Shown in pieces: positions 1 to 12,512 of a DNA stretch of 12,512 nucleotides. Source of the stretch: Nanobdellota archaeon (lineage in GTDB: Archaea > Thermoproteota > Nitrososphaeria > Nitrososphaerales > Nitrosopumilaceae); contig JAAUVF010000008.1 in the NCBI GenBank assembly GCA_012030815.1, positions 1 through 12,512 on the forward strand, in the 5' to 3' direction. The translations under genes were made by a program, and so were the position numbers. Numbering within the stretch: the first letter of the stretch is position 1; each line of letters begins with the position of its first letter. The notes beneath the pieces were generated by a model. That model did not search any database and was not told where the DNA came from. It was given only the letters and a program-made list of their open reading frames with translations.

Positions 1-96
1 TCCCATTTTCATTACGGTTCCTTTACCGTAAGTTTTGTCTAATTTGTCTAACGTTAATTGCAGGGCTTTTAATTTGGCTTCTTTCTCTGAACTCAT
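1..96 (-). CDS. recA: RecA recombinase, bacterial type, N-terminal fragment cut by the window edge
   Basis: The first 32 codons, starting at ATG 96-94, encode MSSEKEAKLKALQLTLDKLD followed by KTYGKGTVMKMG. The segment 'QxxLDKLDKTYGKGTVMKMG' is the N-terminal helix and first strand of bacterial RecA, the ATP-dependent DNA strand-exchange protein of homologous recombination. From memory it is closest to RecA of Bacteroidetes/Flavobacteriia. Archaea normally use RadA, whose N-terminus is different. The Walker motifs lie outside the window. The 82 bases between this start and the frame to its right are very AT-rich and show no clear single promoter. It lies on the same strand as, and downstream of, a truncated archaeal gene, so it could be a transferred gene or a chimeric junction. 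The RecA assignment is fairly strong for so short a piece; its origin is inference. Confidence 0.8.
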   Translation of the reverse strand, partial: MSSEKEAKLKALQLTLDKLDKTYGKGTVMKMG

Positions 97-178
97 AATA
101 ATTGGCTTTAAATTTTGTTATAATTCTTTGTGTAAAATACTTCTTTTTTTAATGTATAATTAAATTATTTTTCCAAAA

Positions 179-364
179 TCACTTTCTTTTATTTTTTGAA
201 ATTATTGTTAGAAATTTTAATAATTCTTCTTCTGACAATGCCATACCTACTTTCATAAACGGTAACGATACTGGAATTGTAAGTAGCGAATCTATATCCA
301 AAATTTTAATTATTTCTACTACTTTTTTCTCTAACCATTCTGTATCGTATTTTTCCTTATTGAT
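179..364 (-). pseudogene. Displaced 3' continuation of the MoxR-associated protein gene
   Basis: This 61-codon frame is open from just after two TGA codons (near 365-370) to a TGA at 181-179. It has no plausible early start codon; the first ATG is about 36 codons in. Its product, from KYDTEWLEKKVVEIIKILD through SEEELLKFLTIISKNKRK, reads as a smooth continuation of the 331-897 protein if one base is added near the A5 run at 350-354 (…VDESI-KEKYDTEW…). The joined product would be about 239 residues. No C-terminal VWA domain or MIDAS DxSxS motif follows, so even the repaired gene looks truncated against CoxE/VWA partners of MoxR as I know them. A small independent gene with an unusual start cannot be excluded. 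Confidence 0.5.
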
Positions 365-897
365 TCATCAACAATTTTCTTTGCAAAATCTGACGCTTTT
401 TTTACTCTTTCAAAATGACTTGATTGCATTTCTCCTTTGATTGTTCCAAACATAAAATATTGATAAAATGCTTCTACAATTCGTGCTTTTCCATAAACTG
501 TATGTAATTGAGGTCTGCCTACTAGCATGTATGCATAATTAAAGATAATTTCTTCATCCATTCCCTTCCAAAGTTTTCTTCCTAACTGTTCTACCCTTAC
601 AGTCTCCATTGTGTTTAGAATAAATCCAAATGCATGATCATTACTGAGAATTTTTTTACAAAATTTTATTCTCATAGATTCATACCATAATGAAGTTCTA
701 AATTGTCTATATCTCTGAAATTCATCTCCAATTCTTTTTTCAATTGGAGTTAGGATTGTCTTATTTTCTTTTAATTTTGTTTTTGTATTGCTTCCATCTG
801 AAAATTCTACTACAATATCTTCTCTTTCTGACCACCTTCTAATCAAAAATGTAGATATCTCAACTAGTGACTCATTTTGTAATTGTAAAGATTGCAT
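331..897 (-). CDS. MoxR-partner protein, probable N-terminal part of a VWA/CoxE-type protein (frame-disrupted)
   Basis: This 188-residue open frame starts at ATG 897-895, directly after the TAG of the upstream MoxR gene, so the two are translationally coupled. The protein is helical, soluble and charged, with no signal peptide or membrane segment. Conspicuous segments are RIGDEFQRYRQFRTSLWYES, VEQLGRKLWKGMDEEIIFNY and YGKARIVEAFYQYFMFGTIK. MoxR ATPases are typically paired with a VWA-domain protein, and I read this as the N-terminal region of such a partner; the VWA domain itself is not present. The last 13 residues or so (after VDES) are probably out of frame, because the natural continuation lies in the frame at 179-364. 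Function is inferred from the pairing: chaperone-like assembly or metal insertion. Confidence 0.6.
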   Translation of the reverse strand: MQSLQLQNESLVEISTFLIRRWSEREDIVVEFSDGSNTKTKLKENKTILTPIEKRIGDEFQRYRQFRTSLWYESMRIKFCKKILSNDHAFGFILNTMETVRVEQLGRKLWKGMDEEIIFNYAYMLVGRPQLHTVYGKARIVEAFYQYFMFGTIKGEMQSSHFERVKKASDFAKKIVDESIRKNTIQNG

Positions 898-1695
898 CTA
901 ATTGCCAAACATTGAGGTAATGATGTCGCTTACTTTTTGATATTCTATATTTCCCCACTGTGTATACACATTACCAAAAACAATTTTTGCTGATTTTTTA
1001 GGAGACATTCCCTCATCAAGTAATTTTCCAAAGGCAATAGTCTCCCTTAGGCTTGGAGAGTAAAATAGTTCTTCAACTGCAGCTGCTTGTCTTAATACAT
1101 TGGCAAGTTTAATTCCTTGAATGATCTCTGAATCATGATTTCCAGAAACATGTTTTTTAATAATCTCTAATTCAATTTCTTCAGATGGGTATTCCAGACT
1201 AATTCTAACTGGAAATCTGCTGAGTAATTGTGGTGGTAATTCTTTGGTTCCACTATGTGTTAGCGGATTGATTGTTGCAACTACAAACCATCCTTCTTTT
1301 GCTTTTACAGTCTCACCTGTAGATTCTTTTAAAACGATCTGTCTTCTATCGTCTAGCGCTTCATCTAATCTGAGAAGTACATCAGCTTCAGCAGAATTTA
1401 TTTCATCTAGATACAACATACTACCATCTTTCATTGATTTAATCAGAAGGCCTTCCTCAAAGCTCACAGTTCCATTCGTTAGAGTTTTTGTTCCAACAAG
1501 ATGGCTTTCGCGTGTTCTGAGGCTGAAATTTATTGATTCCAGTTTCATATTCTTATTTTTTGCAAAATCTCTAACTAGTGATGTCTTTCCTGTCCCTTTT
1601 GGACCAATAATTAATACAAATAATTTTGCTTGAAATGCCTTGTTTAAAATCTCATTTGAATTATTCCAATCTAAATATTCTATTTCTTTTAACAT
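898..1695 (-). CDS. MoxR-family AAA+ ATPase
   Basis: This 265-residue AAA+ ATPase starts at ATG 1695. Visible motifs are Walker A GPKGTGKT (31-38), Walker B LYLDE (94-98), sensor-1 Asn at TINP (143), an arginine finger in LLSRFPVRI (R160) and a sensor-2-like SLRETI (215-220). The helical insertion GTKELPPQLLSRFPV is typical of the MoxR/dynein-related group. MoxR ATPases work with VWA-domain partners in maturation or metal-cofactor insertion of protein complexes. The gene after it, starting on the very next base, is the candidate partner but appears broken. It lies 36 bases downstream of the reductase gene at 1732-3189; that gap is AT-rich (ctttatttg-like) and may hold a weak promoter. The substrate is not evident from the sequence. 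Confidence 0.85.
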   Translation of the reverse strand: MLKEIEYLDWNNSNEILNKAFQAKLFVLIIGPKGTGKTSLVRDFAKNKNMKLESINFSLRTRESHLVGTKTLTNGTVSFEEGLLIKSMKDGSMLYLDEINSAEADVLLRLDEALDDRRQIVLKESTGETVKAKEGWFVVATINPLTHSGTKELPPQLLSRFPVRISLEYPSEEIELEIIKKHVSGNHDSEIIQGIKLANVLRQAAAVEELFYSPSLRETIAFGKLLDEGMSPKKSAKIVFGNVYTQWGNIEYQKVSDIITSMFGN

Positions 1696-1731
1696 CTGAT
1701 ATTTTTTATGATTAAAGTTTACAAATAAAGC

Positions 1732-3189
1732 TTAGTTTTGATATTGAGGTAATTTAGCATTAGATTCATCAAGAATGTTGTGTAGTTTTTTACTCCATTC
1801 ATCAAATCCTTCTGGAGATTCAGGATACTCGTAATAATGTTTTGTTAAAAGTCTATTTTGTTGTGTAGTAAAACGTAAGCCATCAGCTAATTTTTTATTA
1901 AGAGCACCTCTGATCATCATTCCTATTTTTGAAACATTTGAAAAGTCAGGATGCTCTCCTTTTGAAATTGCTTCAACATCAAGATTCCCCAAAAAGTGTT
2001 TCATTCCATAACTAATCTGTTCATTGGTGAGAGTTTGAATTAATTTTCTAAAAATTTCCAATCCTGCTGTTTTGTAACCATATTCATTTATGAACTCTTT
2101 ATTATATTTCCACAATCCTTTTTCGGTAACATCACCTGATTGAATTGCTTCTACTACACATTTTCCAACAATAGTTCCGGCAACCAATGCTGGCCCAATG
2201 CCACCTGCATCAAGTGGTTTTGGCATCCATGCAGAATCCCCAACTAGTACAAATCCATTTGCAACCATGCAATCATTTTGTCTTCTAACTGATACTTGGA
2301 AATTTCCAGTTGCATTATTCTTATCTTGAGCATCTTCTGATAATCTTGCATTTTTTATTGCACGATTTCTTTCAAGATATTGGTTAATCAACATCGACAC
2401 ATTGTCATTTCTTCCTAATCTTTTATTTCGTTTTTCTAAAAGTGTTTTTTCAACTCCTAATCCTATGTTTACTTTATTTTTTCCTTTAGGAAATACCCAG
2501 CCATATCCACCTGGAGCTATATCCTGATCAAGATGAATTATACAATAATTAGGATCAAATTCAGTTAGATCTTCTTCTCCCTGATCAAAATACATAATGT
2601 GTCTTCCTGTTGATTCTACATCTGTACGATCTACTTTTCTTTCCATCTTTGTTGTGTTGGAAATTTGATTTCGAAGCATTGAAGTCATTCCAGTTGCATC
2701 GATTACAACTTTAGATGTCTTTTTGTAAGGTGTTTTTGTTTTGTTGTTTATTCCTTGGACTCCTACCACTTGATTTCCATCATATACTAACCCTGTAAGA
2801 TTAATTTCAAAATCAAAATCTACTCCCATAGCTAAAGTTCTTTGGTTTTGACGTTCTGGCAAAACCTGTCTATTTAACATATACCCAGCACCATCAAATG
2901 GAATTGATGTTTCTCTGTCTGGAGAAAATGCCATTACGCCTTTTACTTTATGTTCAATTTCTGGTTCACTCCAATTAACTTTAATTCTATTTGTCATGTA
3001 ATCCACTGCCTCTTTGCTAACCGCATCTCCGCAAATCCAACCTGACACACTTTTCGACCCAGGCAAATTTGATGGACTTCTATCTATTACTAGAATTTTT
3101 AATCCCTGATTAGAATAATGAGAAACTGATTGGGCAGCGATAGTTCCTGCTAATCCTCCTCCAGCTATTATGACGTCGTAATCTACCAC
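1732..3189 (-). CDS. Geranylgeranyl reductase family FAD-dependent oxidoreductase
   Basis: This 485-residue flavoprotein has the dinucleotide-binding motif GGGLAG at residues 10-15 after a beta strand (DVIIA), the SVSGWICGDA segment typical of archaeal geranylgeranyl reductases, GGYGWVFPKG in the middle, and the second FAD motif VLVGDSAWMPKPLDAGGIGP. Members of the family saturate the isoprenoid double bonds of archaeal membrane lipids (digeranylgeranylglycerophospholipid reductase) or related prenyl chains, using reduced flavin at the membrane surface. At 485 residues it is somewhat longer than many reductases of this type, with extra sequence at the C-terminus. The start is GTG at 3189-3187, supported by a TATA box centred 26 bases upstream, so the mRNA is probably leaderless. 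The exact substrate is not shown by the sequence. Confidence 0.85.
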   Translation of the reverse strand: MVDYDVIIAGGGLAGTIAAQSVSHYSNQGLKILVIDRSPSNLPGSKSVSGWICGDAVSKEAVDYMTNRIKVNWSEPEIEHKVKGVMAFSPDRETSIPFDGAGYMLNRQVLPERQNQRTLAMGVDFDFEINLTGLVYDGNQVVGVQGINNKTKTPYKKTSKVVIDATGMTSMLRNQISNTTKMERKVDRTDVESTGRHIMYFDQGEEDLTEFDPNYCIIHLDQDIAPGGYGWVFPKGKNKVNIGLGVEKTLLEKRNKRLGRNDNVSMLINQYLERNRAIKNARLSEDAQDKNNATGNFQVSVRRQNDCMVANGFVLVGDSAWMPKPLDAGGIGPALVAGTIVGKCVVEAIQSGDVTEKGLWKYNKEFINEYGYKTAGLEIFRKLIQTLTNEQISYGMKHFLGNLDVEAISKGEHPDFSNVSKIGMMIRGALNKKLADGLRFTTQQNRLLTKHYYEYPESPEGFDEWSKKLHNILDESNAKLPQYQN

Positions 3190-3211
3190 AAAAGAACGCG
3201 TCGTTTATCCG

Positions 3212-3219
3212 TATTTAAA
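3212..3219 (-). promoter_or_regulatory. TATA box of the geranylgeranyl reductase gene
   Basis: On the minus strand this reads TTTAAATA, centred 26 bases before the GTG at 3189. That spacing puts transcription start at the start codon and supports GTG over any internal ATG. Confidence 0.6.
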
Positions 3220-3269
3220 ATAATACCATGGTTTTAGGTAAGGCAATTTTGATAATTAATTCAAAAATG

Positions 3270-3337
3270 GGGTCGGTTCGTCGCGGCGTCTTCAAAGCTT
3301 TCGCTCAGACTGGAGCGGCTATTATCTCCTCATTCCC
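3270..3337 (-). ncRNA. Candidate C/D-box guide sRNA
   Basis: This GC-rich element of about 68 bases sits in a 179-base intergenic gap of otherwise very AT-rich DNA. Read on the minus strand it has box C AUGAGGA (3333-3327, six of seven consensus bases), D' CUGA (3308-3305), C' UUGAAGA (3295-3289, five of seven) and a D-like CCGA (3276-3273). Outside the boxes, GGG (3337-3335) pairs with CCC (3272-3270) as the terminal stem of a kink-turn. Between D' and C' is a small AGC-GAAA-GCU hairpin. The C'-D guide is 13 bases, close to the usual 12; the C-D' guide is longer, about 18. A TATA box is centred 27 bases before the 5' end and a T run (CCATTTTTG) follows the 3' end. Such RNAs guide 2'-O-methylation of rRNA or tRNA. 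The imperfect D box lowers confidence. Confidence 0.45.
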
Positions 3338-3360
3338 AAATTGAATTGCCTCTTCATTCC

Positions 3361-3368
3361 TATTTAAT
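3361..3368 (-). promoter_or_regulatory. TATA box of the candidate sRNA
   Basis: On the minus strand this reads ATTAAATA, overlapping the end of the COG1325 gene region. Its centre is 27 bases upstream of the GGG that would begin the sRNA. Confidence 0.4.
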
Positions 3369-3794
3369 CTAGTTGGCAATTTGGAATATGTTGCTGAATA
3401 TTTTGACCGTGTCTTTTTTATTGTAAATGGGTGTGTGAATCTTTACTTTTATTGCATCTCTGTCGCTTAGTATCAGATTTCCTTTGATGAATTCTTGTTT
3501 ATCTAATCTAATGTGAAGTCTAGAATCAATTGTTCTTTCTTCTATCTCCTCAATCAATTTGCTTATTTCAATCTTTGATAATGATTTGATTAATTTACCA
3601 ACAAATTTTTGAGCCTGATTTTTTTCAACTTTCCTATTAAGAATAGTTATTGAATTTTCAAAATGGCCTAGAGTTTCATTGATTATAAAGTTGTCATTTA
3701 GTTCAAATATTTCTTCAAAAGATTTCATGAACTTTGAAATATCTTCTGTTGCATGTATAATCACATCAATTGTAACTTCTAATTTGTTAACCAT
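3369..3794 (-). CDS. COG1325/DUF54 exosome-associated RNA-binding protein
   Basis: This 141-residue protein opens with the strand 'VTIDVIIHATED' and ends with 'SRLHIRLDKQEFIKGNLIL' followed by 'DAIKVKIH', the pattern I associate with archaeal COG1325 (DUF54), a small RNA-binding family predicted to work with the RNA exosome. The HATED and RLDKQ segments are the key identifiers. It is cytoplasmic, with no signal or membrane segment. The start is ATG 3794, 24 bases after the stop of the eS1 gene, so it is probably on the same mRNA. Linkage to ribosomal and exosome genes is a recurring archaeal arrangement and fits a role in RNA handling. Its biochemical activity is not established from sequence alone. 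Confidence 0.7.
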   Translation of the reverse strand: MVNKLEVTIDVIIHATEDISKFMKSFEEIFELNDNFIINETLGHFENSITILNRKVEKNQAQKFVGKLIKSLSKIEISKLIEEIEERTIDSRLHIRLDKQEFIKGNLILSDRDAIKVKIHTPIYNKKDTVKIFSNIFQIAN

Positions 3795-3818
3795 TAACTG
3801 TAATGATGTGATTGTTGA

Positions 3819-4430
3819 TTAAGCTTCAAGTAATGTAATTTCTTTTTCTGCAGTTCTGATAAGTTTAACTTTTTCAAGACCAACATGTCTTACTCTGATA
3901 ACTTTCTTAAATGCAGCCATGATATCTGAATTGATCTTGCTATAACATGTAGCCTGAACAAACTGATCAATTGTCATCTGTGGTACTGTATTGTTAATTA
4001 CATCTCTTGCAATCAATCTTAATGCATGTTTTCTAGATGTGTTAAGTTGTCTATGTGTAAGTGCTAGTATTTTGATTCTGAATACATATCCATCTTTAGT
4101 TTTGATATCTATGGTGAAATTTATCTTGGATGAACCACGTCTGACTAAACTACGCAAAAATTCTTTGGAATACTCATATCTTTTAAAAATTGTAGTAGCT
4201 TTATCTTCTTCTACCTTGTTAATTTGAAAGTAAATCTTGTATTGATGTTGTGATGGATCTCCTTTTAGAATATCATATAGGGTTACTTCTAAAACTCTAC
4301 CTACTGCATTTTCATCATCAGTAACTGGAACATATGCAATTGGAACGTTGTTAAATGAATCTGGGGCGCTAACAGTTACCCATTTCTTTTCACGCCATTT
4401 GTCCTTTACTCGTCCTTTTCTACGTGCCAA
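3819..4430 (-). CDS. rps3ae: Small-subunit ribosomal protein eS1 (S3Ae)
   Basis: This 203-residue basic protein has the archaeal/eukaryotic S3Ae layout: a lysine/arginine-rich start (MARRKGRVKDKWREKKWVTV), the segment VGRVLEVTLYDILKGDPSQH, then KIYFQINKVEEDKATTIFKR, the loop LRSLVRRGSSKINFTIDIKT, and a C-terminal part with IAFKK-like basic residues around AAFKKVIRVRHVGLEKVK. eS1 sits on the platform of the 30S subunit near the mRNA exit. The start is TTG 4430-4428; a TATA box centred 26 bases upstream supports it and suggests a leaderless message. The stop of serS (4471) lies 40 bases upstream, so this gene has its own promoter besides any read-through. The length is normal for the family. 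Confidence 0.93.
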   Translation of the reverse strand: MARRKGRVKDKWREKKWVTVSAPDSFNNVPIAYVPVTDDENAVGRVLEVTLYDILKGDPSQHQYKIYFQINKVEEDKATTIFKRYEYSKEFLRSLVRRGSSKINFTIDIKTKDGYVFRIKILALTHRQLNTSRKHALRLIARDVINNTVPQMTIDQFVQATCYSKINSDIMAAFKKVIRVRHVGLEKVKLIRTAEKEITLLEA

Positions 4431-4451
4431 TTATTATCGACCTTTGAACCC

Positions 4452-4459
4452 AAAATATA
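4452..4459 (-). promoter_or_regulatory. TATA box of the eS1 gene
   Basis: On the minus strand this reads TATATTTT, in the 40-base gap after serS and centred 26 bases before the TTG start. The spacing fits a leaderless transcript. Confidence 0.6.
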
Positions 4460-4470
4460 AGGGTATGTGA

Positions 4471-5145
4471 CTAGATTATGTTTTTCCCCATGTATTTTTG
4501 TAAAACTTTTGGAATTGTAATATGGCCATCTTTAGTTTGAAAATTTTCCATAATTGAAACTAAAACCCGTGATGTGGCAACTAATGTACTGTTTAACGTG
4601 TGAAGATATTGTGTTTCTTCGTTTGTTTTGTCTCTAAATCTGATCTTTAGTCTTCTCGCTTGATAATCTAAGCAATTTGAGCATGAAACAATTTCTCTAT
4701 ACGCATTTTGTCCTGCCATCCATGCCTCTATATCATATGTTTTTGCAGATACTTTTCCCATATCGCCTGATGATAGCAACATTACTTTGTATGGGATCTC
4801 AATATTTTGGTAGAATTCCTCAGCTACTGATAGCATCCTTTCATGTTCTTTCCAAGACTCTTCTGGGCGAGCAAAAACAAACTGCTCAATTTTGTCAAAT
4901 TGATGAACTCTAAAAATCCCTTTCTGATCTCTTCCGTGTGCACCTGCTTCTTTTCTAAAACATGGACTTACTCCGGCATATCTTAGTGGAAGATCTTTAC
5001 CTTCAATTATTTCATCAGAACGCATTGCAGCCATTGCATGCTCTGATGTTCCTATCATGTAGAGATCTTCATTCTCAATTTTGTATATCACTTCTTCAAA
5101 ATCATCAGCTATTATTGCACCTTCCATAGATTGACGATTTATCAT
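4471..5145 (-). CDS. serS: Seryl-tRNA synthetase, C-terminal catalytic part (split by a frameshift)
   Basis: This 224-residue frame carries the class II catalytic core: the serine-binding TSEHAMAAM segment, motif 2 with FRKEAGAHGRDQKGIFRVHQ, the SAKTYDIEAWMAGQNAYREI segment, the CSNCLDYQARRLKIRF loop, and motif 3 around LNSTLVATSRVLVSIMEN. The enzyme charges tRNA-Ser with serine using ATP in the cytoplasm. The apparent ATG at 5145 is internal to the real protein. Adding one A to the A6 run (5171-5176) joins this frame to 5142-5732 through FLAEKNYSLVQPPYMINRQS, giving a normal protein of about 420 residues. Since the enzyme is essential and all motifs are intact, a consensus error is more likely than a pseudogene. 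Confidence 0.9.
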   Translation of the reverse strand: MINRQSMEGAIIADDFEEVIYKIENEDLYMIGTSEHAMAAMRSDEIIEGKDLPLRYAGVSPCFRKEAGAHGRDQKGIFRVHQFDKIEQFVFARPEESWKEHERMLSVAEEFYQNIEIPYKVMLLSSGDMGKVSAKTYDIEAWMAGQNAYREIVSCSNCLDYQARRLKIRFRDKTNEETQYLHTLNSTLVATSRVLVSIMENFQTKDGHITIPKVLQKYMGKNII

Positions 5146-5732
5146 ATATGGTGGTTGGACAAGAGAATAATTTTTTCTGCAAGAAAATCTAATGCATAAT
5201 GAATAAGCGATTGATTTAATCTAACAAGATCGTTTTTTAGATAATAAAACCTTGCACCTGCAACTTTAGCTGCTCTTTCAAGATCAACTAAATCTAAATT
5301 TTCAGAAATGTCGATATGATCATTAATCTTAAAATCCAATTTGGGAATTGTTCCCCATTTTTTAATCTCAATATTAGCAGTTTCATCTTTACCCACAGGT
5401 ACAGACTTGTGAATCAAATTTGGAATAGTTAATGCCAAGTTTGAATATTTTTTTTCTATCTCTAGCTGTGTTGATTCTAATTTTGTTAGTTCTGCTGAAA
5501 TATTTTTCATTTCTGCTAAACTGGGTGAAATATCTTCTCCTGATTTCTTTTTTTGAGAAATTTCTAATGCAACTTGATTTTTCTTTTTTCGCATCTCATC
5601 TGTTTTCAATATGAAGTCTCTTCTTTTTTGATCTGATTCTATTAACTCATCAAAATCAAACTCAACTGCTCTTGCTTTTAGCATATCTCTAATAATCTGT
5701 GGATTGTCTTTGATTATTTTTGGGTCAAGCAT
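5142..5732 (-). CDS. serS: Seryl-tRNA synthetase, N-terminal tRNA-binding part (split by a frameshift)
   Basis: This 196-residue frame holds the N-terminal coiled-coil arm of SerRS (residues about 25-100, rich in Lys/Glu and ending in KKYSNLALTIPNLIHKSVPV), which grips the long variable arm of tRNA-Ser, then the opening of the catalytic domain (DLVDLERAAKVAGARFYYLK and NDLVRLNQSLIHYALDFLAE). After FLAEK the reading goes out of frame (IILLSNHHI) and stops. The correct continuation, NYSLVQPPYMINRQ, lies one base away in the frame at 4471-5145. The start ATG 5732 overlaps the TAA of pcc1 by one base (TAATG), so translation is coupled. The break is at an A6 run. Confidence 0.92.
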   Translation of the reverse strand: MLDPKIIKDNPQIIRDMLKARAVEFDFDELIESDQKRRDFILKTDEMRKKKNQVALEISQKKKSGEDISPSLAEMKNISAELTKLESTQLEIEKKYSNLALTIPNLIHKSVPVGKDETANIEIKKWGTIPKLDFKINDHIDISENLDLVDLERAAKVAGARFYYLKNDLVRLNQSLIHYALDFLAEKIILLSNHHI

Positions 5733-5974
5733 TATTCAATCACCTTTAATGCAAGCTGAACATGCTCTAAAACTTCATCAATAGTGCCTATCAACTTTTT
5801 CATGCTCTCCTTACTCTCAAAATTAAAAACAAGTTTGTTATCAATATTTTCAACGTAAAGACTTAATCCCTCTGGAAAATTTACATTGTCTGGTTCCAAC
5901 GCTTTTTTTACAGTTACTGCCTTCTCTTTTGTAATGTTATTGAGAATTACTTGTACTTGGCATGTTAACGACAT
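5732..5974 (-). CDS. pcc1: KEOPS complex subunit Pcc1
   Basis: This small 80-residue protein of the Pcc1/CTAG type has an alpha/beta layout in which strand VQVILNN and strand NKLVFNFESKESMKKLIGTI are followed by an amphipathic C-terminal helix (DEVLEHVQLALKVIE). Pcc1 is the dimerizing subunit of KEOPS, the cytoplasmic complex with Kae1, Bud32 and Cgi121 that makes the t6A base at position 37 of tRNAs reading ANN codons. The length fits the family. The start ATG at 5974 lies inside the end of the DHH gene (38-base overlap), and its stop overlaps the serS start, so it is tightly embedded in a translation-related operon. Sequence identity in this family is low, so the call rests on length, fold pattern and context. 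Confidence 0.72.
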   Translation of the reverse strand: MSLTCQVQVILNNITKEKAVTVKKALEPDNVNFPEGLSLYVENIDNKLVFNFESKESMKKLIGTIDEVLEHVQLALKVIE

Positions 5975-7085
5975 TTACTTCTAAGTAATCTAGAAATCCA
6001 TCTAATTTGTCTTTAGTTATTTTTGCACCAGCTGCGGCATTGTGCCCTCCACCAACACCATCAAATTTTTCGGCGCCTGTTCTCATTAACTCGCTTAAAT
6101 TAATCTCTGATTTACAACCAAATGATTTTCTTGATGAAAATTTGATAGTATTTTCTTCTCCCCCTGTTCTTAAAATTATAATTTTTCCTGCGTTTTTAGG
6201 TGATCCTGCAATTAATGATGAAATCGTACCTGTCATCATCTCTGGAACAATACCTTCACCATTTACCATAACACATGTTTTACTTTCTGAAATTCTCCAT
6301 CTCTCATTTGTTAGAATGTTCATGTATTCCCTGATCATTTTTCTATAATCTGTAAGAATTGTTTCGCCTTCTCTTAGAATCTTGTTTCTATCACCCATAC
6401 AAACTGCAATTCCAACACCTGATCTGCTGATTCTTCCACATGAATTGAGCATAGTTGAAAACTCTCTTCCATCTCGCAAAAAACTCCTCTTATCTTCTCT
6501 TGGGAATGTATAGGTATATCCAATTAATTCAGACATTATTTCTGTTGCATTCTTTCCTGAAGTAAATTTTGTAATGGTTTCAATGACAAGTCTTTTTTCT
6601 TCATCGTTTAATTCTGCTGGGACTCTCCATCTACCCCCTTCTTTTAGTTGGATTCCAGACGAATTCAAAAGCGAAAGACATGCATCTCTATTCCAAGTTA
6701 GGCCTTCGATAAATGGCTGAGATGTAAATGCCAGAGAATCTGAAATTGGTCTTGTCTCTCTTCCAACTAGTAGTAAATCTAGATCAATATCTACCAGTCC
6801 CTCTTCTTTTGCAGTGTTGGCAATTTCGTAATTTTTTCCAATAAACGATTTTCTTTCCCCCTGATCTTGTCTATCTCCAAGAGCTGAAACTACAGCTATT
6901 GCAGACAAATCAGTATTCTTATCATCTAATGCCATTGCTGCAAGATATGCCATACCTCCAGCACAAATCTCAGTACCACCATCTATTCCATACTTCCAAG
7001 CATTGATGACTCTTTGATTCTCTTGCTCTGTTTCTGATATCTGGTGATGATCTAATACTATCCAATTTTCTCCTAATGTTTTCAT
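5937..7085 (-). CDS. DHH-family phosphoesterase (archaeal RecJ/GAN-like), C-terminal part, frameshifted
   Basis: This 382-residue frame holds most of the protein: the signature VLDHHQ at its start, ALGDRQDQGER (motif IV region), and a C-terminal DHHA1 domain with VGGGHNAAAGA. Such proteins are Mn/Mg-dependent single-strand nucleases or phosphoesterases; in archaea they include GAN, which associates with the GINS-CMG replication helicase, and relatives acting on RNA. The ATG at 7085 is not the true start. The frame joins the 6970-7359 frame just upstream if one base is removed (or two added) in the A4 run at 7079-7082, giving …FANNLDETLGENWIVLDHHQ…. The joined protein is about 473 residues, a normal size. 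Nuclease versus nanoRNase activity cannot be decided here. Confidence 0.82.
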   Translation of the reverse strand: MKTLGENWIVLDHHQISETEQENQRVINAWKYGIDGGTEICAGGMAYLAAMALDDKNTDLSAIAVVSALGDRQDQGERKSFIGKNYEIANTAKEEGLVDIDLDLLLVGRETRPISDSLAFTSQPFIEGLTWNRDACLSLLNSSGIQLKEGGRWRVPAELNDEEKRLVIETITKFTSGKNATEIMSELIGYTYTFPREDKRSFLRDGREFSTMLNSCGRISRSGVGIAVCMGDRNKILREGETILTDYRKMIREYMNILTNERWRISESKTCVMVNGEGIVPEMMTGTISSLIAGSPKNAGKIIILRTGGEENTIKFSSRKSFGCKSEINLSELMRTGAEKFDGVGGGHNAAAGAKITKDKLDGFLDYLEVNVVNMPSTSNSQ

Positions 7086-7359
7086 CTAAATTATTTGCAA
7101 AACCTCCTGCAAGATCTGTAATAATATGAAAATCTCTTGAATCTTTTTTTAGAGACTCGATGACTTTCTTGCTAAATTCTTTTGAAGTTCTAATCGTGCA
7201 TTTTGCACCTGCTCTGATTAGGGCTTTTGTGATTATACTCCCAGATGTTAATCCATCACAATCAATATGTGTTGTAACTGAAATTGATTTTCTTGATTTA
7301 ATGCAATCCGAAATACTATCTTTGAAAAATGAAAGCGACTCATCAAGAGTTTTTGTCAT
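6970..7359 (-). CDS. DHH-family phosphoesterase (archaeal RecJ/GAN-like), N-terminal part, frameshifted
   Basis: The first 92 or so codons (7359 to about 7083) are genuine: motif I HIDCDG at residues 31-36 (metal ligands H31, D33, D35), a Rossmann-like strand-helix repeat, and motif II IITDLAGG with D82. The remaining residues to the stop at 6970 (from about NIRRKLD onward) are out-of-frame read-through over the continuation of the gene. The ATG at 7359 overlaps the stop of the uS15 gene by one base (TAATG), so the two are translationally coupled. Splitting the two halves would separate metal ligands of motifs I-II from the DHH motif and give an inactive enzyme, so a sequence error or a real null allele are the alternatives. 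Confidence 0.82.
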   Translation of the reverse strand: MTKTLDESLSFFKDSISDCIKSRKSISVTTHIDCDGLTSGSIITKALIRAGAKCTIRTSKEFSKKVIESLKKDSRDFHIITDLAGGFANNLDENIRRKLDSIRSSPDIRNRARESKSHQCLEVWNRWWY

Positions 7360-7808
7360 TACTCTAATTGAGCAACTACTGATTTATATTTCCAGTTTTC
7401 AGGAATACGATTTATTCTTTTATAGTACACTGATAATCTGTGCACTTTGGCCTCAATTAATTCAAGAGATCTAACATTTCTATTATCTCCTTTGTTTGCC
7501 TTGAGATGTTTTTGAAGGCCAACTGCTTTTTTTACAATATTGTCTAGGTCCTCTGGCATTTCTGCTTGAAGATTGTTCTCTTCTAGAATTTTTCCTAGAC
7601 TTTTCTTTGTAATTGATTTAATGAGTGGAACTGAATGTTGATCTCTTAGTTTTAATCCAATTTGACTTGGAGATAATCCGTCTTTGGCATATTTTACTAC
7701 TAATTCTTCTATTTCTTTAGGACTTAGTGTGATCCATGAAGGTGCACGTAGTGTAGCTGGTCTAATTGTATGTGATTTTCCGTGTCTGTGTGTGTGTAAT
7801 CGTCCCAT
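7359..7808 (-). CDS. rps15: Small-subunit ribosomal protein uS15
   Basis: This 149-residue protein begins with the archaeal-specific N-terminal extension (MGRLHTHRHGKSHTIRPA, then APSWITLSPKEIEELVVKYA) and continues with DGLSPSQIGLKLRDQHSVPL, the uS15 helical core containing LQKHLKANKGD, and the end motif RRL-like 'KVHRLSVYYKRINRIPENWK'. uS15 binds 16S rRNA near the central junction and is needed for 30S assembly. The length is typical for archaea, longer than the bacterial form by the N-terminal extension. The start ATG 7808 has a weak AT-rich element (gtttaattt on the minus strand) about 27 bases upstream. It is the first gene of the minus-strand run continuing through the DHH gene, pcc1 and serS. 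Confidence 0.95.
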   Translation of the reverse strand: MGRLHTHRHGKSHTIRPATLRAPSWITLSPKEIEELVVKYAKDGLSPSQIGLKLRDQHSVPLIKSITKKSLGKILEENNLQAEMPEDLDNIVKKAVGLQKHLKANKGDNRNVRSLELIEAKVHRLSVYYKRINRIPENWKYKSVVAQLE

Positions 7809-7894
7809 GATTGGGCTGATTATAGAACAAAATTAAACGTTACTTATTCCGAATCTCGTACATAATGTCGGCATTTTGATGATCAGAATAAAAG

Positions 7895-7902
7895 TTAAAT
7901 AT
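7895..7902 (+). promoter_or_regulatory. TATA box of the small membrane protein gene at 7935
   Basis: TTAAATAT is centred about 37 bases before ATG 7935, so transcription would start near 7925, leaving a leader of about 10 bases (containing AGGT) before the start. The stretch between the divergent uS15 gene and this one is otherwise featureless. Confidence 0.5.
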
Positions 7903-7934
7903 GTACAATTTCTTCAAACGAACAGGTAAACTGT

Positions 7935-8267
7935 ATGAATACAAAAATACTTTTAGCAGCATCTCTGATTGCTGTGTTCGCCATTGGCACTTATGCACCA
8001 ACATTAGTTGCATATGCACAATACATGGGTAACGTTGGTTCACAAGGAGAAACTGGATCATATACCCTAGAAGAAGCACTAGAGATTCAACGAAGAAGAA
8101 TTGCATCAGCAGAAGCTAATCCAGGAGCTGGATCAGGTACACCTTATCTTGATGCAAGCGGAGTAGTTGGAGCAGTTGCAATTTCAGCAGCAGTCTTTGG
8201 TGGTATTGCAGGAGCACTCTTCATTAGAGGAAGATCTGGCAAATACGCAGCAATGGGACGAGGATAA
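7935..8267 (+). CDS. Small membrane protein, candidate AmoY/AmoZ-type subunit of archaeal ammonia monooxygenase
   Basis: This 110-residue protein has a signal peptide (residues 1-28, hydrophobic core ILLAASLIAVFAIG, likely cleavage after AYA), an external region with a charged helix (TLEEALEIQRRRIASAEANP), and one C-terminal glycine/alanine-rich membrane helix (about 77-97), followed by a short basic tail RGRSGKYAAMGRG facing the cytoplasm. Proteomic work on AMO complexes reported two small AOA-only subunits, AmoY and AmoZ, whose genes are linked to amo genes in streamlined genomes. This gene and the next plus-strand gene are the obvious candidates in this amo neighbourhood. I cannot tell from memory which of the two names belongs here, so no symbol is given. 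There are no His/Cys copper ligands in the external part. Confidence 0.62.
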   Translation: MNTKILLAASLIAVFAIGTYAPTLVAYAQYMGNVGSQGETGSYTLEEALEIQRRRIASAEANPGAGSGTPYLDASGVVGAVAISAAVFGGIAGALFIRGRSGKYAAMGRG

Positions 8268-8274
8268 ACAAACC

Positions 8275-8297
8275 TTATTTTTCTCTTATTTTATTTG
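8275..8297 (+). terminator. T-rich terminator after the 7935-8267 gene
   Basis: A pyrimidine tract, TTATTTTTCTCTTATTTTAT, begins about 8 bases after the stop codon without a strong hairpin. Such T tracts are sufficient for termination by archaeal RNA polymerase. Confidence 0.4.
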
Positions 8298-8347
8298 ATG
8301 TACTTTAGTGGATACTGATCTCGTACTTTCTGATAATAAAAGAAATG

Positions 8348-8354
8348 TATATAT
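8348..8354 (+). promoter_or_regulatory. TATA box of the small membrane protein gene at 8380
   Basis: TATATAT is centred 29 bases before ATG 8380. This places transcription start essentially at that ATG and argues against the in-frame upstream GTG at 8308, which would put the TATA box inside the coding region. Confidence 0.6.
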
Positions 8355-8379
8355 CGTACAAATAGAGCCAAAATATACA

Positions 8380-8649
8380 ATGACTCCTATCGTAGGAACT
8401 TTCCTAAGCATCCTGTCTTCACTTACAGGTCAGTTAGGACCAAACTATGATCCATTATTCTATGATGTAATGATTTACATCTTCGGAACCATAATGTTCT
8501 CAGTATTCCTTCTTGGAGTAATCTCATTCTGGTTACGTGTACACGGATGGGCTTACAAAGACAACCGTGAGAGATGGGTCGATGAATTAGACAGACACTT
8601 TGAAAGAGAAGGTATCGGTTTAATTCCAGACAACGGTAAATACTGGTAA
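8380..8649 (+). CDS. Small membrane protein, candidate AmoY/AmoZ-type subunit of archaeal ammonia monooxygenase
   Basis: From ATG 8380 the product is 89 residues: a short N-terminal segment (MTPIVGTFLSILSSLTGQLG), one strong membrane helix (about 30-52, VMIYIFGTIMFSVFLLGVIS), then an aromatic, charged cytoplasmic-type tail (LRVHGWAYKDNRERWVDELD, ending DNGKYW). An in-frame GTG at 8308 would give 113 residues, but the TATA box lies between the two and favours the shorter form. The clean promoter, strict conservation-like composition and position beside the AMO genes make it, with the 7935-8267 gene, a candidate for the accessory subunits AmoY/AmoZ described for ammonia-oxidizing archaea. Which of the two it is remains open; the assignment rests on context and size. 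Confidence 0.62.
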   Translation: MTPIVGTFLSILSSLTGQLGPNYDPLFYDVMIYIFGTIMFSVFLLGVISFWLRVHGWAYKDNRERWVDELDRHFEREGIGLIPDNGKYW

Positions 8650-8757
8650 AATACTTCCTTTCCATCTTTTCATTATTTTTAAAAATCTGAATAATCTAAT
8701 TATCCAAGTCATGATTTTTCTAAAATAATTTTTTCAAGTTTTACTTTGTTTAATGGA

Positions 8758-9228
8758 CTAATTTTGAGGAGGAAGGAAGTCTTTGTCTTTGGCCTCATCG
8801 TATGCCTTTGAGGTAAACATTGCCTTGTAGTGATATCCGTCTTGTAATGGGGTTTTGATGAAGTTATCTGATAACCTATCGTTGACAAATACAGTTGATT
8901 TTGTTTCATCCATATCTCTTAGAGGAAATTTGAAAATCCATAAAAAGTGCCCAATCTCAAACTCTGGATCTTCTTTCCATTCTGCATAAACCGTTCCATC
9001 ATTGCTAAGTGTGTAGATTGCTCTTTGACATCCTCCTTCCATAAAACCAACGTTAGCTGGAATGTCTGCTTTTTGATTATCTACATAAATTTCAACAGTA
9101 AATGATATTTTCCAATTTTTTTGAATATCGTTGATACATGCATTACGTGGTTGTTCTCCGATGAATGGGTTTACAACTAAAATTGTGATTAATACCGCTA
9201 CAGCTCCTACCCCTGCACTTAAAATCAA
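8758..9228 (-). CDS. Membrane-anchored extracytoplasmic protein, family member lacking metal-binding histidines
   Basis: This 156-residue protein has one N-terminal membrane anchor (about 3-23, SAGVGAVAVLITILVV) and an external domain with two cysteines (C31, C67). The layout, a strand 'FTVEIYVDNQ', then 'DIPANVGF', then Cys-x(4)-'IYTLSNDGTVYAEW' and 'FEIGHFLWIF', matches a thaumarchaeal family I know with the pattern HxH…IPANIGI…C…HTHD…GxxHIES…TLGxFF. Here the HxH and HTHD histidines are replaced (SFT and YTLS), so the metal site appears lost. The start is TTG 9228-9226: a TATA box lies 24 bases upstream and no ATG is available in frame. It lies between the candidate AmoY/AmoZ genes and amoB. 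Function is unknown; an electron-transfer or assembly role would be speculation. Confidence 0.7.
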   Translation of the reverse strand: MILSAGVGAVAVLITILVVNPFIGEQPRNACINDIQKNWKISFTVEIYVDNQKADIPANVGFMEGGCQRAIYTLSNDGTVYAEWKEDPEFEIGHFLWIFKFPLRDMDETKSTVFVNDRLSDNFIKTPLQDGYHYKAMFTSKAYDEAKDKDFLPPQN

Positions 9229-9248
9229 AAACTGTATGGTCTTTTTCT

Positions 9249-9255
9249 CTTATAT
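9249..9255 (-). promoter_or_regulatory. TATA box of the 8758-9228 gene
   Basis: On the minus strand this reads ATATAAG, centred 24 bases before the TTG start and directly preceded by a GC-rich tract (GGGGACTGGGGATCC). The spacing supports TTG 9228 as a leaderless start. Confidence 0.55.
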
Positions 9256-9318
9256 GGATCCCCAGTCCCCGGCCAAATCATACAAATGATTTTTTGAGGA
9301 TTATTTAAAGTCCTTCTG

Positions 9319-9477
9319 TTACGTATCCATTATCTCTATAGTGTCAAATTGATCTTGATGGTCTGCAAGAAAATATGTTATCTCATCAGAATCTATTTCC
9401 AGCCACTCCGATTCCCCACAATACGGCAAATAATCTTCAACAAACAGATCTTTTGAACCTGTTATCCGTACTATCAT
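9319..9477 (-). CDS. Small hypothetical protein, second half of a split gene
   Basis: This 52-residue frame runs from ATG 9477 to TAA 9321-9319 and is acidic (MIVRITGSKDLFVEDYLPYC, then ESEWLEIDSDEITYFLADHQ). Its ATG overlaps the TGA of the preceding frame in an ATGA, so it could be a coupled second gene. More likely it is the C-terminal half of one protein of about 105 residues: adding one A to the A7 run at 9484-9490, or a -1 slip there, joins the frames as …LPLVLIQKKEKMIVRITGSKD…, which reads as a continuous beta hairpin. It is not secreted and has no membrane segment. I do not recognise the family. Codon use and AT content match the neighbours. Confidence 0.5.
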   Translation of the reverse strand: MIVRITGSKDLFVEDYLPYCGESEWLEIDSDEITYFLADHQDQFDTIEIMDT

Positions 9478-9632
9478 CTTCTCTTTTTTTGAATTAATAC
9501 CAATGGTAATTTGAGAACTTTGCCTCTTTTTTGATTTTGTATGTTTACTTTGTAACTATCATTACGAAATTCAACATCTCCAAAAAAATAACTTTGAAAA
9601 ATATCTAGTTTTTTTATTTTAAAACTTAGCAT
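9474..9632 (-). CDS. Small hypothetical protein, first half of a split gene
   Basis: This 52-residue frame starts at ATG 9632 and ends at TGA 9476-9474 (MLSFKIKKLDIFQSYFFGDV, then EFRNDSYKVNIQNQKRGKVL). It is basic and beta-rich in pattern, with no signal peptide. A TTTTTATC element about 28 bases upstream can serve as TATA box. The last residues after LPLVLIQKK are out of frame if the gene continues into the frame at 9319-9477. The zero-frame sequence at the junction is CAA AAA AAG, which contains the heptamer A_AAA_AAG, a known slippery sequence for -1 frameshifting. Single gene with an indel, programmed frameshift, or two coupled genes are all possible. No function can be assigned. Confidence 0.5.
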   Translation of the reverse strand: MLSFKIKKLDIFQSYFFGDVEFRNDSYKVNIQNQKRGKVLKLPLVLIQKKRR

Positions 9633-9678
9633 GTTCTTTCTTGTCTTCTCTTGCAGATAAAAACTTGGTTGATTACAA

Positions 9679-9691
9679 TACGGTAACCGTA
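9679..9691. promoter_or_regulatory. Palindrome TACGGT-A-ACCGTA, operator candidate
   Basis: This 6-base inverted repeat with a one-base centre lies between the amoB stop (9729) and the start of the small gene at 9632. It falls some 20-30 bases upstream of that gene's TATA-like element, a position where archaeal activators bind. No copy was seen in the other intergenic regions here. Confidence 0.3.
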
Positions 9692-9728
9692 AAGAGTATC
9701 TAGAAAATGAAAAGGAAAAGTGGGTGGC

Positions 9729-10298
<570 letters not shown>

Positions 10299-10331
10299 AG
10301 TCCTAATATTCAGAATGATAATACACATTGT

Positions 10332-10339
10332 TATATATT
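10332..10339 (-). promoter_or_regulatory. TATA box of amoB
   Basis: On the minus strand AATATATA is centred about 37 bases before ATG 10298, predicting a leader of about 10 bases. It rules out the longer amoB frame that begins at 10397. Confidence 0.6.
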
Positions 10340-10380
10340 TTACCTTGGTAACGAGGATCGATACATCTCTGCTATGATTA

Positions 10381-10390
10381 ACATCGATGT
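10381..10390. promoter_or_regulatory. Perfect 10-base palindrome ACATCGATGT upstream of amoB
   Basis: The palindrome lies about 45 bases upstream of the amoB TATA box in the amoB/amoC divergent region. A second ATCGAT core lies 26 bases nearer the promoter at 10357-10362. The pair could be binding sites for a dimeric regulator. Confidence 0.35.
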
Positions 10391-10456
10391 TCAACATTGA
10401 AATTAATAAAAATAGAGTAAATTTATTTCATTATTATCAATTTTTAATATGAAAAA

Positions 10457-10488
10457 TTCTATCATTTTATTGGTTTTTCTATCATTTT
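10457..10488 (+). repeat. Direct repeat TTCTATCATTTT, two copies at 20-base spacing upstream of amoC
   Basis: Identical 12-base copies at 10457-10468 and 10477-10488 start exactly 20 bases apart, about two helical turns, so both face the same side of the DNA. The nearer copy ends about 33 bases before the amoC TATA box. This is suggestive of an activator site, although the AT richness weakens the statistics. Confidence 0.4.
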
Positions 10489-10521
10489 TTTTATAAAAAA
10501 TCTTTATTTTAAAACTCTTGC

Positions 10522-10528
10522 TTTATAT
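10522..10528 (+). promoter_or_regulatory. TATA box of amoC
   Basis: TTTATAT is centred 27 bases before ATG 10552, so the transcript would start at or within a few bases of that ATG. This supports ATG 10552 over the in-frame TTG at 10546. Confidence 0.65.
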
Positions 10529-10551
10529 CCAGAATTAACACTTTATTGAAT

Positions 10552-11115
10552 ATGGCACAGATGCCCGCATTAATCCCAAAAGAAGTTGAGATTCAGAGAC
10601 TAAAGAAAATCTGGCTCATCGTCATTGCTATGGGATCCACTGCAGCATCAGTCGAAGTAGACAACTTCGTTGATGGTTCTTTACATCAAACCTCTATCAG
10701 AGATAGTGCATTTACACCAGCACACTGGTGGCTATACTCCCACTTCATCACATTACCACTTGGATGGGCAGCAGCAGCAATCTATGATAGAAAAGTACCA
10801 GTACTCAGAGGTCCAAATAACTCAATTAACACTGGATTGAAGATGACCATTCTTGGTTACCTTGCAACCATGTTTACAATTGGAGTCAATGAGATGTGGC
10901 ACTTCTGGTTTGTAGAAGAAATCTTTGCAGTACCAAATCACTGGATGTTTAACATGGGTGTTGTAGTAGCATTCATGGGAGCACTTGCATACGTAGTTAG
11001 AGTATATGCTCGACTCGTAGAATTAGGTGCAGAAACCCCAGGTGAGAATCCATACGTTGCAGAGATGTACAAGATGGCTTTAGAAGGCAAATTGTACAGC
11101 AGAGCAATTCCATAG
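10552..11115 (+). CDS. amoC: Ammonia monooxygenase subunit C
   Basis: This is the 187-residue archaeal AmoC, starting MAQMPALIPKEVEIQRLKKI. An N-terminal amphipathic/membrane helix (about 18-35) is followed by an external loop with FVDGSLHQTSIRDSAFTPAH, then four further membrane helices and a cytoplasmic tail ending KLYSRAIP. In the helix pair around 105-140 the motif GVNEMWHFWFVEEIFAVPNH contains N113-x3-H117-x12-H130, the position of the Asp-His-His metal site of PmoC, with Asn where PmoC has Asp (my alignment). This intramembrane site is the favoured location of catalysis in recent pMMO work. It is the first gene of the plus-strand run amoC-amoX-amoA, but each gene has its own TATA box and T-rich gap, so separate transcripts are likely. 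Confidence 0.97.
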   Translation: MAQMPALIPKEVEIQRLKKIWLIVIAMGSTAASVEVDNFVDGSLHQTSIRDSAFTPAHWWLYSHFITLPLGWAAAAIYDRKVPVLRGPNNSINTGLKMTILGYLATMFTIGVNEMWHFWFVEEIFAVPNHWMFNMGVVVAFMGALAYVVRVYARLVELGAETPGENPYVAEMYKMALEGKLYSRAIP

Positions 11116-11122
11116 ACACAAA

Positions 11123-11149
11123 GTGCAATAGCACATTTTTTCTCTTTTT
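11123..11149 (+). terminator. Terminator after amoC: GTGC-AATA-GCAC hairpin plus T tract
   Basis: A 4-base-pair stem (11123-11126 with 11131-11134) with an AATA loop is followed by ATTTTTTCTCTTTTT. It would separate amoC transcription from amoX. Confidence 0.5.
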
Positions 11150-11199
11150 ATTATTTTCAATATCACGAAGATCGTACTGGGCCTCACATTTAAGAAAGA

Positions 11200-11206
11200 T
11201 TTAAAA
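11200..11206 (+). promoter_or_regulatory. TATA box of amoX
   Basis: TTTAAAA is centred about 29 bases before ATG 11232, consistent with a leaderless or nearly leaderless transcript. Confidence 0.5.
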
Positions 11207-11231
11207 GGATTCTGATTAGTATAATTCCAGA

Positions 11232-11594
11232 ATGACTCTTCCGAAAGGATTTGGTTCAAGTGGCGCAGGTGGCGCATCTAGTTCCGATGTAGAACGAATG
11301 ATTGGCAGACGTGTCGAAAACATGACTGGCATGATCACTTTGTCATACATTGCAGCTTGGTTAGCAACTTTTGGTGGTACTGCAGCAGGATATTTCTATT
11401 ATCCTTGGGCATATCCAACAAGTAGTGGTCACTATGCGTTCATCGTTCTGACAATTATCGAAGCAATAGGTTATCTCTTCTGTGTCAAAGTAATGGAAGA
11501 GGGCTCTAAGAAAAACAGCAATGGTATAGTTGCTGCTACTCTAGCCGCAACCGCTGTAGGTACTGTAATCATAGTACTATTTGTTGGACATTAG
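11232..11594 (+). CDS. amoX: Ammonia monooxygenase accessory subunit AmoX
   Basis: This 120-residue protein has a glycine/serine-rich N-terminus (GFGSSGAGGASSSDVERMIG) and three membrane helices (about 34-54, 68-87 and 98-118), with a basic loop KVMEEGSKKNSNG between the second and third. AmoX is found only in ammonia-oxidizing archaea, always near amoA and amoC, and was found as part of native AMO complexes by proteomics. It has no copper-ligand motifs, so a structural role in the membrane part of the enzyme is likely. It lies between amoC (116 bases) and amoA (102 bases to its ATG), same strand. A T-rich tract (CTTCTTTTTACTTTATTTT) follows its stop. Confidence 0.93.
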   Translation: MTLPKGFGSSGAGGASSSDVERMIGRRVENMTGMITLSYIAAWLATFGGTAAGYFYYPWAYPTSSGHYAFIVLTIIEAIGYLFCVKVMEEGSKKNSNGIVAATLAATAVGTVIIVLFVGH

Positions 11595-11665
11595 AAGGAA
11601 AATCCTTCAGTTCTTCTTTTTACTTTATTTTAATAAAATCAACGATCTCCATCACACTCTAAAAT

Positions 11666-11673
11666 TTTATATA
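11666..11673 (+). promoter_or_regulatory. TATA box of amoA
   Basis: TTTATATA is centred 27 bases before ATG 11697, so transcription should begin at that ATG. The in-frame TTG at 11691 would lie upstream of the transcript. Confidence 0.65.
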
Positions 11674-11696
11674 CTGACCGTTTATTCTACTTGATA

Positions 11697-12347
11697 ATGG
11701 TCTGGCTAAGACGATGTACTCACTACTTGTTCATAGTAGTAGTTGCAGTTAACTCTACACTGTTAACAATTAATGCAGGAGACTACATTTTCTATACTGA
11801 CTGGGCTTGGACATCGTTTACGGTATTTTCAATATCGCAAACTTTGATGCTTTGCGTAGGTGCTACATATTACCTAACGTTTACAGGCGTTCCAGGAACA
11901 GCGACGTATTACGCCCTAATTATGACAGTATACACATGGATAGCAAAAGGTGCATGGTTTGCTCTAGGTTATCCATATGACTTCATTGTAACACCAGTTT
12001 GGTTACCATCAGCAATGTTGCTTGATTTAGCCTATTGGGCCACAAAGAAGAACAAACATTCGTTGATACTGTTTGGCGGTGTACTTGTAGGAATGTCTTT
12101 ACCATTATTCAATATGGTAAACCTGATAACAGTAGCAGACCCACTAGAAACGGCATTCAAATATCCAAGACCAACATTGCCACCATATATGACACCTATA
12201 GAACCTCAAGTAGGTAAATTCTATAACAGTCCAGTTGCATTGGGCGCAGGTGCAGGTGCAGTATTGTCCGTTACGTTTACAGCATTAGGTTGTAAATTGA
12301 ACACTTGGACATACAGATGGATGGCCGCTTGGTCAAAGTGGGACTAA
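11697..12347 (+). CDS. amoA: Ammonia monooxygenase subunit A
   Basis: This is the 216-residue archaeal AmoA, beginning MVWLRRCTHYLFIVVVAVNS and ending WTYRWMAAWSKWD, exactly the usual length. About six membrane helices are visible, with characteristic segments INAGDYIFYTDWAWTSFTVF, TFTGVPGTATYYALIMTVYT, the LGYPYDFIVTPVWLPSAMLL region, and the external loop ADPLETAFKYPRPTLPPYMT. AmoA is the marker gene used to survey archaeal nitrifiers; the standard reverse-primer site is present without mismatch at 12309-12328. AmoA forms the membrane core of the AMO protomer with AmoB and AmoC. The start ATG 11697 is preferred over the in-frame TTG at 11691 because of the TATA spacing and family length. 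Confidence 0.98.
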   Translation: MVWLRRCTHYLFIVVVAVNSTLLTINAGDYIFYTDWAWTSFTVFSISQTLMLCVGATYYLTFTGVPGTATYYALIMTVYTWIAKGAWFALGYPYDFIVTPVWLPSAMLLDLAYWATKKNKHSLILFGGVLVGMSLPLFNMVNLITVADPLETAFKYPRPTLPPYMTPIEPQVGKFYNSPVALGAGAGAVLSVTFTALGCKLNTWTYRWMAAWSKWD

Positions 12348-12357
12348 AACTTCAACC

Positions 12358-12381
12358 CTTTCCTTTCATTTTATTATTTTT
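12358..12381 (+). terminator. Pyrimidine-rich terminator after amoA
   Basis: CCTTTCCTTTCATTTTATTA and a following TTTTT lie about 10 bases beyond the amoA stop, with no strong hairpin, as is usual for archaeal T-tract terminators. Confidence 0.4.
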
Positions 12382-12401
12382 GCTTAGAGTATTCTCTAAA
12401 T

Positions 12402-12453
12402 GACAATAAAATTTGATTAAAAAATATTGTACATGTTGTGATCTTTTATTGTC
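12402..12453. repeat. 10-base inverted repeat GACAATAAAA / TTTTATTGTC with 32-base spacer
   Basis: Perfect 10-base arms at 12402-12411 and 12444-12453 flank an AT-rich spacer downstream of amoA. A further GACAAT occurs at 12459-12464. It could be an RNA hairpin at the amoA 3' end or a regulator site for a gene beyond the window. Confidence 0.4.
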
Positions 12454-12512
12454 TCTTTTGACAATATGCGTTATTGTGATTATATCATGTGAAGCAACAA
12501 TATGATCAGATT

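Follow-up and report, generated by a model that had tools for sequence, protein, structure and literature searches.

The 12,512-nucleotide stretch of DNA analysed here (the window) is in all probability a chimeric contig, judged from comparisons of its DNA and proteins, and the recA start at one end would be an artefact of Flavobacterium DNA rather than a gene of the archaeon itself. The chimera is supported by the sharp switch of parentage inside a conserved gene, the presence of DNA from upstream of recA, the position of this DNA at the contig end, and the fact that positions 1-166 were unmatched in 18 genomes of the archaeal genus. All the features observed are explained by a chimeric join, which is strongly favoured over gene transfer. 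The features concerned are collected in Table 1.

Table 1. Features of the left part of the window
Feature	Position	Strand	Remarks
recA start, first 32 codons, Flavobacterium type	1..96	-	truncated by contig end; 32/32 residues and 95/96 bases as in Flavobacterium MAG L017
Non-coding DNA upstream of Flavobacterium recA	97..166	-	alignments to G107, G108 (1-178) and G103 (1-194)
Join, short stretch ATTTTTCCA	167..175	.	present in Flavobacterium relatives and some archaeal relatives
N-terminal part of vWA-like (MoxR partner) gene	167..897	-	cut at join; two one-base indels, at about 189 and 355
MoxR-type AAA ATPase of the archaeon	898..1695	-	AAA_5, E 4.7e-23; nearest named relatives Nitrosarchaeum

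Flavobacterium origin of the recA start

The translation of window positions 1-96 on the minus strand was stop-free and read MSSEKEAKLKALQLTLDKLDKTYGKGTVMKMG. RecA of Flavobacterium sp. WM.006 (L017, NZ_PNJW01000001.1) was identical to it in 32/32 residues, and the window ended after RecA residue 32, with 32 of 333 codons present and the RecA core, with its Walker motifs and DNA-binding loops, lying outside it. When PDB was searched with these residues, 22 distinct sequences were found at E≤1, headed by three RecA fusion chains (best E 1.2e-16, a value summed over repeated units), and single-copy RecA chains matched at E 0.0076 and above. Two M protein chains (E 0.0039 and 0.0057) ranked between the fusion chains and the single-copy RecA and were taken as chance matches, and the Pfam scan of the 32-residue piece alone gave nothing at E≤0.001. 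By its full identity to Flavobacterium RecA and its matches to RecA chains in PDB, the N-terminal sequence is that of a bacterial RecA.

A search of genome_contigs with a degenerate pattern for recA codons 8 to 26 returned 11 stretches of DNA, with titles naming Flavobacterium (7), Flavobacteriaceae (2), Flavobacteriales (1) and Bacteroidetes (1). Flavobacterium sp. WM.006 and Bacteroidetes RA.bin78 (L020) each shared 95 of the 96 coding bases with the window, six further loci shared 84 to 93, and three of the 11 rows were not comparable. Then window 1-330 was compared with eight of the 11 source genomes and matched all of them, the best three being G108 (1-178 at 93%), G107 (1-178 at 93%) and G103 (1-194 at 91%). 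In addition, an even sample of 398 genomes was drawn from the larger genus that G107 and G108 share; 388 of them matched at E≤0.001, again with G108 and G107 as the best.

The similarity was not confined to the coding part. The 70 bases upstream of the recA start aligned to the DNA upstream of recA in Flavobacterium, where they were less alike than the coding bases; against G108, the coding part (96 bases) had a single mismatch, and the upstream part had 10 and one gap. The donor is thus a Flavobacterium that is closely related to the genomes compared but differs from them. The preliminary description had read positions 1-96 as a bacterial RecA start with an affinity to Bacteroidetes/Flavobacteriia; the RecA matches agree with the former, and DNA and protein matches narrow the latter to Flavobacterium as the source genus.

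Base composition was tried as a marker of parentage and set aside. Positions 1-166 had 26.5% G+C against 34.4% in the rest of the window, a difference that could not separate the parents because a good part of 1-166 is non-coding and the compared loci were alike (32-35% in Flavobacterium, 33% in the archaeal genome G001).

Archaeal remainder and the junction

Window 167-12511 formed a single collinear alignment of 91.45% identity with G001, the nearest archaeal genome compared. The nearest named relatives of the ATPase were Nitrosarchaeum sp. (92%) and Candidatus Nitrosarchaeum limnium (90%). At the right end an amo-like gene was found at 9729-10397, with PF04744 of Pfam just above its cut-off, and further genes there are presumably amo-like as well. 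In the protein database, the ATPase encoded in the window is assigned to a single contig of 12,512 bases, which is the exact size of the window. The window thus appears to be the whole contig, with the foreign 166 bases therefore in terminal position.

Window 1-1000 was searched in 18 genomes of the archaeal genus, with 26 candidates scored per genome, and 17 of them matched. The main alignments started at 167 in fifteen cases and at 169 in another, all other pieces began at 167 or further right, and no listed alignment among the 18 genomes entered window 1-166. In G001, position 167 lies within a gene of 520 aa, whose homologue (about 520 aa) was full-length in 16 of the 18 genomes. The exceptions were two: one is G013, with gene pieces only, one of them running off a contig end, and another is G018, without a match. 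The name vWA-like for this gene rests, by our assumption, on its pairing with the MoxR gene, and the Pfam scan of its 188-aa piece gave no match. In the alignments to the 18 genus genomes recA was not found at this site, and the gene was uninterrupted in 16. The window therefore passes abruptly from one well-matched genome to another inside a conserved gene, as a chimeric contig does.

One-base indels relative to G001 were observed at about 189 and 355 in the vWA-like gene, at about 5170 in a seryl-tRNA synthetase gene and at about 7078 in a DHH-family gene, and all three split genes are single ORFs in G001. Three of the four indels sit in T-runs. They are likely sequencing errors, and they point to a sequence of modest accuracy, as expected of low-accuracy or low-coverage data. 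The archaeal neighbouring DNA and the disrupted archaeal gene reported in the preliminary description were both confirmed, the former by Pfam, the G001 alignment and the Nitrosarchaeum relatives, and the latter by comparison with G001, which showed that the window's gene is broken by the join plus one-base indels. The spacing of 82 bases given there needs correction, as archaeal homology starts at 167, which is 70 bases from the recA start codon.

A recent transfer, in which a recA from Flavobacterium entered this strain, was inserted in its vWA-like gene and may supplement RadA, could explain why Flavobacterium and archaeal DNA are joined on one contig and why recA shows its start codon and upstream DNA over the part visible. 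It is nevertheless very improbable. Of the 18 genus genomes, 16 keep intact the gene that the insertion would have destroyed, and none of the 18 has an alignment reaching 1-166; the bacterial stretch closely resembles extant Flavobacterium and is visible solely as a terminal stub. Such a transfer would require a very recent, once-found insertion in a gene kept across the genus. Put more specifically, that a Nitrosarchaeum-like archaeon very recently gained, within its vWA-like gene, a recA from Flavobacterium and the promoter region belonging to it, so that RadA and RecA occur in one cell line, the proposal is a shade less probable again.

RecA-like genes in archaeal relatives and in viral records

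PF00154 was detected at E≤0.001 in 100 of 101 relatives. A full-strength RecA occurred only in G079 (457.6 bits), the others reaching at most 59 bits among the matches listed, and matches up to this score we take to be of the archaeal RadA kind. G079 belongs to the same archaeal order and has a completeness of 84% and a contamination of 5%; its RecA gene lay on a contig of 11,850 bases (L082, contig C35). Nine of the 20 ORFs of at least 100 residues on this contig were scanned, giving CinA, YebC, TolB_N, ExbD/TolR and MotA/TolQ, which are presumably bacterial families. RecA as the archaeon's own gene was rejected for G079; with TolB, TolR/ExbD, TolQ, YebC, CinA and RecA together, contig C35 is a probable contamination.

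Genomes of the archaeal family, 250 in number, were searched with Flavobacterium RecA at E≤1e-30. Only two of them gave a match, at 38 and 33% identity and on phage-like contigs, and neither gene resembles the window recA, which speaks against a recent transfer too. These divergent RecA-like genes were on L085 (G544 contig C8) and L086 (G689 contig C17), binned in archaeal-family genomes. Further genes there, assigned by eye from ORF lists, were exonuclease, helicase and reductase genes.

That two genomes of the family carry phage-like contigs with recA-like genes (labels given by eye) would be in line with a virus or other mobile element having brought the bacterial stretch to the archaeon. 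The probability of this is negligible, as the DNA matches Flavobacterium recA plus its upstream region and the exact 27-base pattern spanning the join had 0 matches in viral_contigs. The phage collection likewise gave for window 1-300 only six records, at E 0.02-0.3 and over 13-14% of the query, which were taken as chance.

The preliminary description had left two readings side by side. A chimeric join with a flavobacterium is the one favoured by the switch, the upstream DNA and the contig end, while an acquired recA gained no support in the relatives searched. A true transfer would have been an unusual case of bacterial RecA alongside archaeal RadA, for which no support was found here.

The probable chimeric join and comparable cases

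In the chimeric contig, about 166 bases of Flavobacterium chromosome, comprising the recA start and its upstream DNA, would have been fused, at about 167-175, to a contig of a Nitrosarchaeum-like archaeon, with the fusion point inside the archaeal vWA-like gene. The likely route would be either a chimeric molecule or read that arose while the DNA was amplified or the library prepared, or a wrong overlap made in assembly, kept at the contig end; the joining would have happened in vitro or in silico, not in a cell. The foreign stub of 166 bases is small enough to fit inside one ordinary read.

The nine bases at the junction were exact in the Flavobacterium loci L047, L048 and L049, and in two of six aligned archaeal loci (L025 and L026). 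Among the other archaeal loci, G001 and L022 were one base off and L024 two, and L037 aligned only from 169. If these DNAs were joined at random, a shared run of nine or more would be expected in a fraction of 7e-5 to 1e-4 of cases. On these alignments the fusion may have been directed by this brief overlap, the true archaeal parent lying outside the compared loci; guidance is not certain because the nearest archaeal relatives by identity (G001, L022 and L024) lack the full set of nine. Short shared sequence occurs at illegitimate recombination in cells too. Nine bases are fewer than the overlap that assemblers normally accept, so a chimeric molecule is favoured over a plain false overlap. Caution is needed, since a gene predicted at this end of the contig would credit an ammonia-oxidizing archaeon with a recombinase of bacterial type.

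Chimeras of this general kind are described for amplified libraries. In PMC2731171, 2-4% of the reads in 454 single-cell MDA libraries were chimeric, about 1 per 10 kb, and seven chimeric contigs remained in each single-cell 454 MDA library. The likeness is that chimeric reads fuse two regions and persist in a contig. The difference is that the regions joined in that study belong to one genome, whereas two organisms are joined here.

The other counterparts of the window are its two parents. With the Flavobacterium recA of L017 it shares 32/32 residues and 95/96 coding bases, and Flavobacterium upstream DNA aligns as well, to window 178; the window differs in having only 32 of 333 codons, a less similar upstream part, and archaeal DNA beyond about 175. 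With the MoxR/vWA-like region of G001 (contig C5) it is collinear throughout 167-12511, but G001 runs on through the full 520-aa gene, and the window switches to Flavobacterium there.
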